DNA of 41,658 nucleotides from Thaumarchaeota archaeon casp-thauma3 (GTDB lineage: Archaea; Thermoproteota; Nitrososphaeria; Nitrososphaerales; Nitrosopumilaceae), in contig LFEY01000001.1 in the NCBI GenBank assembly GCA_001510275.1, forward strand, positions 1-41,658, given 5' to 3'. Positions 30,151 to 41,465 of this stretch are shown here, piece by piece. Within the stretch, counting starts at the first letter, position 1, and each line of letters starts with the position of its first letter. The translations under genes were made by a program, and so were the position numbers. The notes under the pieces are model-generated. The model saw only the letters and a list, made by a program, of their open reading frames with translations, was not told the origin of the DNA and ran no database searches.

Positions 30151-30252
30151 ACCATTTTCTCCTAAAACTGTAAAGTCTATTTGCAACACTCAATATTACT
30201 TTTTCAGAAAATAGCGATCTATTATTTGGATAAGTTTATTACTTTAATCCCC

Positions 30253-31626
30253 ATGTTTTTTTTCGTGTCTAAGGCTATGATTTTAACAGTTCTGCTTGCA
30301 GGTCTCATTATTATAGGAACAAGTACTCCTGTTTGGGCTGCCCAATTAGATGCTAGAATTAACCCTAATAATGATTCATCTCCATTTAGTGTGAATTATC
30401 AAAAAACTGTCTTTATTGAATATCCAAATGGTGGAAATCTATTTGATGAATTACGTGGAAAAGAATGGACTGTATCTGGCACTGCTGATTCATCAAATCC
30501 TGGAGTTCAAGAACTAATAGGTGCACTAAATCGAGGAATTGCTGACGATGGAAGTCAAGCAAGAATTTCAGACTTGAATGTCTCTTATGATTTTCATCTT
30601 AAAGCAAGAAACATCAATACATCTGTTGATTATAGAGTACTCATAGAAGGAACATTAATTGATTATGTAATTACAAAAGATACTCAAAGAACTTTAATTG
30701 ATTTAGGTTGGAGGGGATTAACTGCTGACGGTGATGTTGTAATTGATGATGTGGAAATTAATATTCCAATAAATTTACTTCGAGATCAGGAACCTGCAGT
30801 TTATACATTCCTTGTTGGAACTAAAGCAGAAGAAGTTCTCAGTAGAAATCTCATTAATGCAGAGTATATTTTAGCGCAACCACTAACAAACTGGCACTTT
30901 TTGTTTGATCCAACAGGAATCAATGTAGATGCTGGAACATTTGGATTAGATAAAAGCATCTCAGGATTTGTCGTTTCTAGCTGGACTATGGGGGAAAGTA
31001 GTCTGAGAGAAGGAAGACAAGTTGAAAGAGTCTTTGAAGCAGAAATAGTATCTGACCAAAAATATGTTATTAGAAGTGTACAATCTTCTGATCAAGCTAA
31101 CCTTGCAATAATTGGTTTTGGTGCATTAGATGTATTAGATGGACTTGAAATTGCAGGTGTAACCCCAACTTCTCCTGCGGGGTATGCAACAACTTCAACT
31201 GGTGGCTTTCCAATCATGATAGTTTATGGTATGGCTGGAATGGCAGCTATTGCAGGAATTGGTTTCTTTATTTTCAGTAGCAGATCCCTCAAAAAGGAAG
31301 CACAAGGTCAACAAGGAATTGATCCTAGTAGACTGGTAGGTTATACAACTAGTTCATCATCTGGTGGCTATCAAACTAATCGAGGTGAGGCGCAATTAAT
31401 AGATGATACTGATTATCAACAAACCAGAAGTGTTTATGAGGAAACTCAACAACATAGACCTCCTCAAACATCTATTCCTACAGCTCAAGAGGCAGCATGT
31501 GGGTGTGCTGCATCTGCTGAAATTGGCTCTGAATGTGATTGTGAAATGCAAGGCTCTTGTCTTTGTGATGGATCATGCAAATGTAATGCCAAAATTTGCA
31601 AAGAACAAGCTCATTCAATGAGTTAA
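30253..31626 (+). CDS. Exported single-pass protein with Cys-rich cytoplasmic tail
   Basis: The 457-aa protein (ATG 30253; a longer frame begins at 30181) has a signal peptide ending PVWAA, a beta-rich outer domain (about 35-325), one membrane helix (GMAGMAAIAGIGFFIF), a basic stop-transfer (SRSLKKE), a low-complexity Ser/Gln-rich linker, and a tail with nine Cys in CGC, CDC, CLC, CKC pairs and a final C. By the positive-inside rule the tail is cytoplasmic. CxC clusters suggest metal or Fe-S binding. I do not recognise the outer domain. The gene is divergent from cofD. Confidence 0.75.
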   Translation: MFFFVSKAMILTVLLAGLIIIGTSTPVWAAQLDARINPNNDSSPFSVNYQKTVFIEYPNGGNLFDELRGKEWTVSGTADSSNPGVQELIGALNRGIADDGSQARISDLNVSYDFHLKARNINTSVDYRVLIEGTLIDYVITKDTQRTLIDLGWRGLTADGDVVIDDVEINIPINLLRDQEPAVYTFLVGTKAEEVLSRNLINAEYILAQPLTNWHFLFDPTGINVDAGTFGLDKSISGFVVSSWTMGESSLREGRQVERVFEAEIVSDQKYVIRSVQSSDQANLAIIGFGALDVLDGLEIAGVTPTSPAGYATTSTGGFPIMIVYGMAGMAAIAGIGFFIFSSRSLKKEAQGQQGIDPSRLVGYTTSSSSGGYQTNRGEAQLIDDTDYQQTRSVYEETQQHRPPQTSIPTAQEAACGCAASAEIGSECDCEMQGSCLCDGSCKCNAKICKEQAHSMS

Positions 31627-36521: not shown

Positions 36522-36890
36522 ATGCTTACCATTGATTGCAGAGATGTTTTATCAATAAAAAATGAATTACTCGTTTATGTCTCAGACCAAGCAGCAGCTA
36601 TTCCTACTCTAAAACATCATCAATTCACTCTTTCTACTTTAGATGATGATGAAACAATTGATACTAATACAGTTATTACTTCAATCAAAGAATTTTTGGA
36701 TTCAATTGGAGAAGGCCGTAATTTTGCTGTAATATCTAATAATGAAACTATAAGAATAAAATCCATTTCTGGTAAAATTATAGAAAGAGATACTGTACAG
36801 CAATCTGAAATGTTTTCATGTACCCACTGTGGATTTGTAACAAGATATGAAGTTGAACTTAATACTCACATGCGAATACATTATCTTTAA
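36522..36890 (+). CDS. 122-aa protein with C-terminal C2H2 zinc finger
   Basis: The last 26 residues form a single classical C2H2 finger, FSCTHCGFVTRYEVELNTHMRIHYL, spacing C-x2-C-x12-H-x3-H. The first ~95 residues are an alpha/beta domain (LTIDCRDVLSIKNELLVYVS, TNTVITSIKEFLDSIGEGRNFAVISNNET). C2H2 fingers are rare in archaea; a single one usually cannot bind DNA alone, so protein binding is also possible. Function unknown. Confidence 0.75.
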   Translation: MLTIDCRDVLSIKNELLVYVSDQAAAIPTLKHHQFTLSTLDDDETIDTNTVITSIKEFLDSIGEGRNFAVISNNETIRIKSISGKIIERDTVQQSEMFSCTHCGFVTRYEVELNTHMRIHYL

Positions 36891-37008: not shown

Positions 37009-37028
37009 ACTAATCACAGAAATTGATT

Positions 37029-37226
37029 GTGAAAAAACTATCAAAACATAACATAACAAAGGTTTATTGTGAAAAATGTGATTTGATTTTTGAATCCCGA
37101 GAAAAATTTCAAAAGCATTTTGATAACCATTCATCAAGTGTTACTTGTGAGGTATGTCCAATTGATACTGTAATCTCAAAGTTTGTAAATTTGTTTAAAC
37201 AAAATCCTTCCCGTAATTTGGAATAA
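37029..37226 (+). CDS. 65-aa C2H2 zinc-finger protein
   Basis: This small protein contains YCEKCDLIFESREKFQKHFDNH, a C-x2-C-x12-H-x4-H type finger, followed by a second CxxC (CEVC) and a short hydrophobic helix (VISKFVNLF). I take the GTG at 37029, aligned with a TATA box 26 bases upstream; the frame also allows TTG at 37023. It precedes the DsbA-like gene by 32 bases on the same strand, so it may belong to that transcript. Confidence 0.7.
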   Translation: MKKLSKHNITKVYCEKCDLIFESREKFQKHFDNHSSSVTCEVCPIDTVISKFVNLFKQNPSRNLE

Positions 37227-37258: not shown

Positions 37259-37915
37259 ATGAATAAAAAAGGCGTAATTATAGGCGTCATTATCGTAGCA
37301 ATTATTGTTGGAATAATTGCATCATATTCATCAACTTCTCTTGAAACTGTAAATCTTGACATGGGGCGAACACATGGTTCTATTTCTACGGCTATGGGCT
37401 CACCAATTTTAGGTGATCCTTCTGCTCCAATTACTATTGTTGAATTTGGTGATTATCAATGTCATCAATGCAATAACTGGTTTCATAATACAAAACCTGC
37501 AATAACTCGCGATTATATTGAAACTGGAAAAGTAAATCTAGTTTTTGTTGATTTAGCATTTTTAGGTAAAGATTCTCCAAAGGCTGCTCAATCATCTTAT
37601 TGTGCTGAAGATCAAGGAATGTACTGGGAATATCATGATCTTCTTTACAATTCTCAAGAACCAAAAATTGATGGCGGTTGGGCAAATTCTGAAAGACTCA
37701 AAGCTTTTGCATTTAGCTTAGGTCTTGATATGGAATTGTTTGAAAGTTGTCTTGATTCTGAAAAATATTCAAAACGTGTACAGTATAACATACAACAAGC
37801 CAGAGAAAATGGTGTAAGTGGCACCCCTGGGTTCTTTATTGTAAGTTCTAATGGACAACAACAACTTAGTGGAGCACAACCTTTTTCAGTCTTTAAACAA
37901 ATATTGGATCTATAA
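37259..37915 (+). CDS. DsbA/thioredoxin-fold disulfide oxidoreductase, membrane-anchored
   Basis: This 218-aa protein has an N-terminal membrane helix (residues 5-24), then a DsbA-type thioredoxin fold: ITIVEFGDYQCHQCNNWFHNTKPAI with active-site C68-H-Q-C71, a helical insert with Cys pairs (SSYCAEDQGMYWEYHDLL, FESCLD), and the cis-Pro loop VSGTPGFFIV. It catalyses disulfide formation or isomerisation outside the membrane. The 4-TM gene starts four bases after its stop and may reoxidise it. Confidence 0.92.
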   Translation: MNKKGVIIGVIIVAIIVGIIASYSSTSLETVNLDMGRTHGSISTAMGSPILGDPSAPITIVEFGDYQCHQCNNWFHNTKPAITRDYIETGKVNLVFVDLAFLGKDSPKAAQSSYCAEDQGMYWEYHDLLYNSQEPKIDGGWANSERLKAFAFSLGLDMELFESCLDSEKYSKRVQYNIQQARENGVSGTPGFFIVSSNGQQQLSGAQPFSVFKQILDL

Positions 37916-37919
37916 TCTA

Positions 37920-38399
37920 ATGGTACAAACAATCAAACTTGTATATTCTAATTTCAAATATCTAGTCTTATCATTTATAATTTTTACATCCATGATGATT
38001 GGGTTGTTGATATTATCTGAATATATTTTTCTAGAACCTTATATCGTTAGTCATCTTCCATCTGGAAGTGAGTTTGGATTTATCCTTATTGTGGTGATTT
38101 CAGCATTATCTGCATTAGTTATTCCAATGAATATATTTCGAATAAAAATCCTTAAAAGTTCAAAACAAAAAATGGGTGGGGGAATATTTGGTTCAGTTAT
38201 TGGTACTGTAGCTGGTGCATGTAGCTGTGGACCTGTTGGATTTGCAATAATCTCTACCTTTGGTTCTGTGGGGGCTACTGCAACTGCATTTCTTACAAAT
38301 TATGAAACTCCAATTAGAATAATTGCAATTGCAATTCTAGTTGTTACATATTTTACAACTGTAAAATCCCTCAAAGTTGAATGTAAGATTAATCCTTGA
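37920..38399 (+). CDS. Four-helix membrane protein with CSC motif, possible DsbA partner
   Basis: This 159-aa protein starts at ATG 37920. Four hydrophobic segments are visible (about 14-36, 52-74, 89-112 and 128-146). The third holds GTVAGACSCGPVGFAIISTFG, a CxC pair in the membrane region; a further Cys lies near the C-terminus (VECKINP). It is coupled to the DsbA-like gene (4-bp gap). It is not a recognisable DsbB or VKOR, which use CxxC pairs in loops. A redox partner or chaperone for DsbA is the inference from context. Confidence 0.7.
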   Translation: MVQTIKLVYSNFKYLVLSFIIFTSMMIGLLILSEYIFLEPYIVSHLPSGSEFGFILIVVISALSALVIPMNIFRIKILKSSKQKMGGGIFGSVIGTVAGACSCGPVGFAIISTFGSVGATATAFLTNYETPIRIIAIAILVVTYFTTVKSLKVECKINP

Positions 38400-38646: not shown

Positions 38647-39564
38647 ATGCAGAATTGGAATCTTATAATTGGAATTTTGATCATTGCCAGCCCAATTCTT
38701 TTTGCAATGGCTGCATATCCTGATTCTATATCTTTGAGTTGGAATGAAGGACGAGGTGGTTATCTTTTTGGACTAGTCTTTATAGTAGCTGAACTAATTG
38801 GGCTTAAAATTATCATTTCAAAAAAACGATTAGTTGCAGTAATTCCTCTATCGACACTCACCATTTTGTATCTAATTTCATTAGAACATGGATTAAGAGA
38901 TTACATTATTGAATCTGCAGAACAATTTGATGTACAACTAATCTTTTCTTGGACCTGGATGTGGGACTTTATCGTAATGGCGATTTTTATTGTTGTAGGA
39001 TTAAGTATATTTTTTGGAAAACGATGGATTAGAATTGCACCTGCAGGACCTATCTTTCTAACTGGAACTGCAATAATTCTTTCACTTGATGCGTTTTTCC
39101 CATATGACACTCTTGGTCCATTACAGTACATTGTTCCATACTTTGTTCAAGCAAATGTTTGGTTAGTTACCCTATTTGATCTTGGAACTGCAGTAGCTAA
39201 AGACAATGTGATGTTCTTACGTGGTGATCATGGTTCAATGGCTTTACAAGTATTTTGGCCATCTGCAGGTGTTCATAGTATCATTATCTTCTCTTTGGTA
39301 ATTGGGGCATTCATGTTAAAGATGAACATTCCTCGACGTAGAAAAGTTGTGTATTTTGTTTTAGGAATTATTGGTACAATTATTGTTAATTTAATTAGAA
39401 TTTTTTCATTATCATGGTATGCCCTAAAAGTCACTACAGATCCTGAGGCATGGCAGGCATATCACGAAATTGCAGGTGAAATTATGTTCTTACCGTGGCT
39501 ATTTGCATTCATTTTAGTTGTTATAATAATAGAATCTAGGCGTCTCAAGAAACTAGAGAAATAA
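38647..39564 (+). CDS. Archaeosortase/exosortase-family protein with Ser in place of catalytic Cys
   Basis: This 305-aa protein (ATG 38647; an upstream TTG at 38623 is less likely) has about eight membrane helices. The family active-site regions are PSAGVHS at residues 205-211 (where other members read CSG-x-R-S), NLIRIF with Arg251, and HEIAGEIMFLPW with His273. The whole protein contains no cysteine, so Ser206 is the likely nucleophile. Archaeosortases cut or modify proteins with a C-terminal signal, helix and basic tail. Thaumarchaeal members are known to pair with PEFG-type tails. One candidate substrate is in this window (20699-23155). Confidence 0.85.
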   Translation: MQNWNLIIGILIIASPILFAMAAYPDSISLSWNEGRGGYLFGLVFIVAELIGLKIIISKKRLVAVIPLSTLTILYLISLEHGLRDYIIESAEQFDVQLIFSWTWMWDFIVMAIFIVVGLSIFFGKRWIRIAPAGPIFLTGTAIILSLDAFFPYDTLGPLQYIVPYFVQANVWLVTLFDLGTAVAKDNVMFLRGDHGSMALQVFWPSAGVHSIIIFSLVIGAFMLKMNIPRRRKVVYFVLGIIGTIIVNLIRIFSLSWYALKVTTDPEAWQAYHEIAGEIMFLPWLFAFILVVIIIESRRLKKLEK

Positions 39565-41216: not shown

Positions 41217-41465
41217 ATGGATTATCCTGTATCTGTAGATGAAAATGGCCTAAATTTAAAACCCGAGAAAATGGAAAAAGAAAAACTCTACCATTGTATA
41301 TTTAAAAACAAGGCAATTTTGATTTTCAAAGATTCACAAGACGTCTTAAATTGTTATGAAATTGAACAAGAGGATCTAGTAGAGCAAATTACAAAATGTA
41401 CTAATGATGATGAACTTGAAAAATTATTTGAAGACTATCTTCAAGGACAAGACCTTAAAAATTAA
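41217..41465 (+). CDS. 82-aa acidic protein, unknown
   Basis: The protein begins MDYPVSVDENGLNLKPEKM, has a strand-rich middle (LYHCIFKNKAILIFKD) and an acidic helical C-terminus (VEQITKCTNDDELEKLFEDYL). No motif recognised. It starts with ATG and is followed 40 bases later by the Pro/Glu repeat gene on the same strand. Confidence 0.6.
   Translation: MDYPVSVDENGLNLKPEKMEKEKLYHCIFKNKAILIFKDSQDVLNCYEIEQEDLVEQITKCTNDDELEKLFEDYLQGQDLKN

Follow-up and report, generated by a model that had tools for sequence, protein, structure and literature searches.

A gene in the window, the stretch of 41,658 nucleotides that we analysed, probably encodes an active archaeosortase of serine type for PEFG-CTERM proteins, with a predicted site of Ser206, His273 and Arg251. 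The gene is a member of a family already named by NCBI, thaumarchaeosortase. What is new here, as judged from the genomes compared, is that the serine is clade-wide, has a single origin and is tied to PEFG-CTERM, the family and the signal having been named earlier by NCBI. The curators presumably paired the family model (TIGR04297) with the signal model (TIGR04296) and may have noted the serine.

Identification of the thaumarchaeosortase gene

The source genome is of Nitrosopumilus type and comprises 1.22 Mb in 31 contigs. The open reading frame runs from ATG to stop codon without an internal stop (Table 1). Its translation contains no Cys, reads PSAGVHS with Ser as residue 206, and retains Arg251 and His273, all as the original prediction had described. 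The protein scored 598 bits with TIGR04297 (NCBIfam; cut-off, 250), over model positions 1-298 of 307, and 50.7 bits with TIGR04178, the exosortase/archaeosortase superfamily signature (cut-off, 23). The score for Pfam Exosortase_EpsH was slightly under the cut-off. The next-best-scoring named archaeosortase was archaeosortase C (TIGR03762), of which the protein is not a member (31.8 bits against a cut-off of 100). Archaeosortase C is a Cys enzyme by family definition, and its PEF-CTERM signal is similar to PEFG-CTERM. Compared with the TIGR04297 and TIGR04296 pair, the gene showed the same full-length match, co-occurring signal and archaeal lineage, and no difference. Because the catalytic Cys is missing, we regard the protein as part of a homologous branch of the superfamily and not as a cysteine archaeosortase.

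We sampled 398 genomes of the phylum; TIGR04297 matches above the cut-off occurred in 69 of them, every one from the order of the source genome. Named relatives at 82-88% identity were mostly Nitrosopumilus, and further named relatives were Nitrosarchaeum and kin. The expectation that thaumarchaeal members diverge at the catalytic position was correct; the divergent branch is TIGR04297, which NCBI had already defined as a family.

Table 1. Positions in the window of the thaumarchaeosortase gene and of its main residues.
Feature	Position	Strand	Evidence
Thaumarchaeosortase gene (TIGR04297), predicted multi-pass membrane protein, 305 aa	38647..39564	+	Profile match; AF2 model, mean pLDDT 93.4, pTM 0.86
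Residues 181-201, three short beta strands before the catalytic helix (model)	39187..39249	+	Model secondary structure; same element at 204-224 in the Cys relative L071
Motif PSAGVHS, residues 205-211, start of helix 205-225	39259..39279	+	Counterpart in most Cys relatives is WPC[AS]G
Ser206 codon (TCT), catalytic-Cys column	39262..39264	+	Ser 93/93 in branch, Cys 43/43 outside
Arg251 codon, counterpart (by motif) of the essential Arg of archaeosortase A	39397..39399	+	Invariant, 136/136; role in ArtA, PMC9263693
His273 codon, likely general base	39463..39465	+	Invariant, 136/136
Glu278 codon, acidic residue 5 after His273	39478..39480	+	Acidic in 93/93 Ser enzymes, 11/43 Cys relatives
Phe203 codon, aromatic residue that probably arrived with Ser	39253..39255	+	Phe/Tyr in 93/93 Ser enzymes, 1/43 Cys relatives

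Serine at the catalytic column

Homologues were collected from the 398-genome sample and from intermediate lineages and were then aligned. In this alignment, Ser206 stands where the exosortase/archaeosortase superfamily has its catalytic Cys, and no other residue takes that place, in agreement with the prediction of a serine in the catalytic position. The original prediction had also proposed to see whether Ser is invariant among thaumarchaeal homologues. Every sequence of the thaumarchaeosortase branch carried Ser (93/93), down to 28-31% identity to the query protein, and all four TCN codons were used; the 43 relatives outside the branch all carried Cys, mostly in WPCAG or a similar motif. 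Three of these Cys relatives (L071, L072 and L080) also pass TIGR04178, indicating that their Cys lies within the region covered by the superfamily signature. Arg251 and His273 were kept in all 136 aligned sequences, i.e., in the branch as well as in the Cys relatives, and Asn248 was found in all 93 of the branch and in all but one of the 136. Members of the superfamily have a conserved Arg and a third residue that is Arg, His or Asn, places that are held here by Arg251 and His273. In named genomes, Ser was read at the catalytic column of 80/80 loci, a set that overlaps the 93 and is not unbiased because one of the two search patterns contains Ser.

No Cys was present in the aligned region of 57/93 branch proteins, and the remainder had scattered, unconserved Cys residues (7/93 in the commonest column). 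The absence of Cys as such is not the point; it is Ser at the catalytic column that, in this alignment, goes far beyond chance. A replacement Cys nucleophile at another site of the protein was ruled out, as no Cys is conserved in the branch. Similarly, His210, which lies one turn past Ser206, was ruled out as an obligatory base, since 5/93 sequences have Asp or Gln there.

The Cys relatives from elsewhere in the phylum (L071-L111) share about 20-33% identity with the query and keep both Arg and His, and L071 has the same layout of secondary structure. However, they have Cys at the nucleophile column, mostly lack the aromatic residue at 203, and come from genomes with almost no PEFG-CTERM matches. 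ArtA of Haloferax volcanii also belongs to the superfamily, spans the membrane several times, and has a conserved Arg and partner proteins with a tripartite C-terminal signal; it differs in having Cys173 as nucleophile, Arg253 as third residue and PGF-CTERM as signal, where thaumarchaeosortase has Ser206, His273 and PEFG-CTERM. The match of Ser206 and Arg251 to Cys173 and Arg214 of Haloferax ArtA was made by motif and from the literature (PMC9263693).

Origin of the serine and residues that accompany it

A tree of 73 sequences was built with the catalytic column omitted; it came from a quick method and contained some long branches, and on it a single Cys/Ser change suffices (SH-aLRT 91). Ser was encoded only by TCT, TCA, TCC or TCG and Cys only by TGC or TGT, and TGY to TCY is one base change. 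The spread over four TCN codons with no change of residue points to selection on Ser. On the tree and the codons, Cys was replaced by Ser once, long ago, and was then kept as Ser in every copy examined.

Residues 203 and 278 (Table 1) distinguish Ser enzymes from Cys relatives, as does Asn187, which occurred in 93/93 Ser enzymes versus 6/43 Cys relatives. The nearest Cys relatives already have Asn187 and the acid at 278, so that these two are probably older than the switch from Cys to Ser. By the same comparison, the aromatic residue at 203 probably came with the switch. Abdul Halim et al. reportedly found in 2018 that an engineered Cys173Ser ArtA of Haloferax volcanii was inactive. This would mean that Ser alone is insufficient in ArtA, and the surroundings of the nucleophile (203, 187 and 278) may be what lets Ser work.

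Genomic context and other archaeosortases

The gene order of enzyme, DinB and a small ORF at 41217 was kept in families f1, f2 and f3, indicating that the thaumarchaeosortase gene was inherited in place.

Several other genes of the window, all on the forward strand, were also inspected. The gene at 37851-38399 encodes a small membrane protein without a match in Pfam or NCBIfam and, in much of family f1, is the immediate upstream neighbour of the sortase. A DsbA/thioredoxin-like protein with an N-terminal membrane anchor (37259-37915; Thioredoxin_4, 98.6 bits) is encoded upstream of the sortase in many, not all, f1 relatives. Two short proteins each have a single C2H2-like zinc-finger motif, slightly under the Pfam cut-off in one (36522-36890) and seen by eye only in the other (37023-37226). 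The product of 30181-31626, a membrane or secreted protein, ends in a very Cys-rich tail (ACGCAASAEIGSECDCEMQGSCLCDGSCKCNAKICKEQ) that perhaps binds metal.

The source genome contained no second TIGR04178 match; thus, a separate Cys-type archaeosortase that does the real work was ruled out. In the family of the source, 95/101 genomes had a TIGR04178 match, and 92 of these 95 had exactly one. The second copies in the other three (L150-L152) keep Cys, in PACAG, PACSG and NSCSG. These copies and that of G338 indicate that Cys chemistry is available in the lineage, and Ser thus appears, from the sequences, to belong to the thaumarchaeosortase branch alone.

G338 is a member of the order without TIGR04297. 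At its locus L149 (G338:C1:750645-753920), a Cys archaeosortase adjoins a repeat protein that looks beta-propeller-like by eye and ends in IPEFPMGLTF (with PEFP), a TM segment and a basic stretch, apparently a pair of PEF-CTERM protein and Cys archaeosortase. Two genomes of family f76 (L147 and L148) combine the Ser enzyme with a second archaeosortase, which is of the Cys type (GPCTGIKG).

Co-occurrence with the PEFG-CTERM signal

The sorting signal expected for the enzyme is PEFG-CTERM (TIGR04296). In the 398-genome sample, proteins with this signal were present in each of the 69 genomes whose enzyme scored above the cut-off, and the five members of the order that lacked the enzyme had none. 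Outside the order, a PEFG match was found in only two genomes, although 53 hold enzyme relatives, all of them Cys where read. Among 300 genomes of the order, in lists transcribed by hand, 163 had enzyme and signal, 17 the enzyme only, 8 the signal only and 112 neither (Fisher's test, p ~5e-53, a figure not to be read as a probability because the genomes are related). Common descent is a confounder of this co-occurrence. Completeness did not exceed 86% in seven of the eight genomes that had the signal only. The 17 with the enzyme only all lay outside the family of the source, mostly in deep lineages, where the PEFG signal may have diverged.

The source genome encodes five PEFG-CTERM proteins (E < 1e-4), which supply the C-terminal signal of motif, TM segment and basic stretch that goes with the superfamily. 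Two of them (L113 and L116) are cupredoxin-like, one over and one under the Pfam cut-off, and are likely surface copper proteins anchored by the PEFG-CTERM/thaumarchaeosortase system. PEFG-CTERM proteins were among those raised in Nitrosopumilus cultures under hydrogen peroxide (PMC6593220). In addition, a lake population, Nitrosopumilus limneticus AOA-LC4, has a PEFG-CTERM multicopper oxidase that is co-transcribed with amoABC (PMC9122916), and we found the Ser enzyme in Candidatus Nitrosopumilus limneticus AOA-LC4 as well (L189). We infer from the co-occurrence that PEFG-CTERM proteins are the likely substrates of the Ser enzyme.

Predicted structure

The AlphaFold2 model of thaumarchaeosortase (Table 1) was helical, and the model of the Cys relative L071 had the same layout (mean pLDDT 92.7). 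In the thaumarchaeosortase model, the strands of residues 181-201 lead into helix 205-225 with Ser206 at its start; Arg251 lies within helix 230-261 and His273 close to the start of helix 266-304. Positively charged stretches at 58-61, 125-129, 230-233 and the C-terminus were placed at the opposite helix ends, suggesting that Ser206, Arg251 and His273 are directed towards the outside. The protein modelled in this way is a multi-pass membrane protein whose active site would face outward, the side being assigned from the charged loops alone, and residues 181-201 probably form an extracytoplasmic part beside the active site. Neither a sequence search nor a fold search returned a solved structure of a relative, and a search of a viral library gave nothing.

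Proposed mechanism and alternative explanations

We propose an enzyme embedded in the cell membrane, active site outward, that would recognise the C-terminal tail of PEFG motif, TM segment and basic stretch on secreted surface proteins. His273 would activate Ser206 for an attack on the chain close to PEFG, which would form an acyl-serine (ester) intermediate, and Arg251 would stabilise this intermediate. The acyl-serine may then be passed to a lipid head group, to another amine or alcohol, or to water, and the protein would be anchored or trimmed, depending on the acceptor of the new C-terminus. This ester scheme is patterned on the thioester mechanism that has been put forward for ArtA (PMC7157517). 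A literature search that included related terms found no paper on thaumarchaeosortase and no activity data. Rhombosortase is also a membrane-embedded serine enzyme that acts on a C-terminal tripartite signal; however, it has a rhomboid fold and a Ser-His dyad and belongs to an unrelated family, so that the analogy is one of function and no homology is claimed.

The protein might instead be a pseudoenzyme that lost its Cys and binds, escorts or inserts PEFG-CTERM proteins uncut, with Ser in a structural role. The reported inactivity of Cys173Ser ArtA would fit such a protein. A dead active site usually drifts, however, and Ser206, Arg251, His273 and Asn248 are invariant down to 28-31% identity, with Ala, Gly or Thr never found at 206. 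In addition, the protein is the sole archaeosortase in 92/95 enzyme-bearing genomes of the family, and these have PEFG-CTERM signals to process. We therefore consider a pseudoenzyme unlikely. An active enzyme with another nucleophile (another conserved Ser or Thr, or an activated water), in which Ser206 is a bystander, seems less likely still. Ser101 does not vary within the branch (92/92), and there is conservation of Ser211 and Thr244 too, which would make each of them a candidate; yet Ser211 and Thr244 are equally conserved in Cys enzymes, whose nucleophile is the Cys, and Ser101 is common to 24/43 Cys relatives. Of these residues, Ser206 alone takes the place of the Cys, and the conserved Arg and His have stayed the same.

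The original prediction had named a decayed copy of a gene whose homologues keep Cys as an outcome that would overturn it. We found no member of the branch that keeps Cys, and Ser was invariant across the order. It is scarcely conceivable that decay, a sequencing error or an assembly artefact turned an ordinary Cys enzyme into the present gene, considering that the same residue is read in 93 sequences of many families and in the 80 loci of named genomes, that the frame is intact, and that the source genome has no Cys-type gene elsewhere. The reading of an active serine-type archaeosortase, with Ser206 as the putative nucleophile, thus remains the one that we prefer.

Significance

Enzyme families seldom exchange a Cys nucleophile for Ser or the reverse, and engineered swaps usually kill activity. 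Thaumarchaeosortase would be a natural swap from Cys to Ser that has been kept since, with close Cys relatives at hand for comparison. The enzyme family trims surface proteins and probably anchors them, and its likely clients include the cupredoxin-like proteins and the multicopper oxidase of AOA-LC4. We lean slightly against, but consider quite possible, a wider account in which an order that includes very abundant marine ammonia oxidisers switched once from a Cys to a Ser transpeptidase; second-site changes (the aromatic residue at 203, Asn187 and the retained acid at 278) would let Ser work where engineered ArtA reportedly fails, and the enzyme would anchor copper proteins of the ammonia-oxidising surface. 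As the sole archaeosortase in most of these genomes, and with copper proteins among its likely clients, thaumarchaeosortase suggests that surface assembly in ammonia-oxidising archaea may depend on the predicted serine chemistry.
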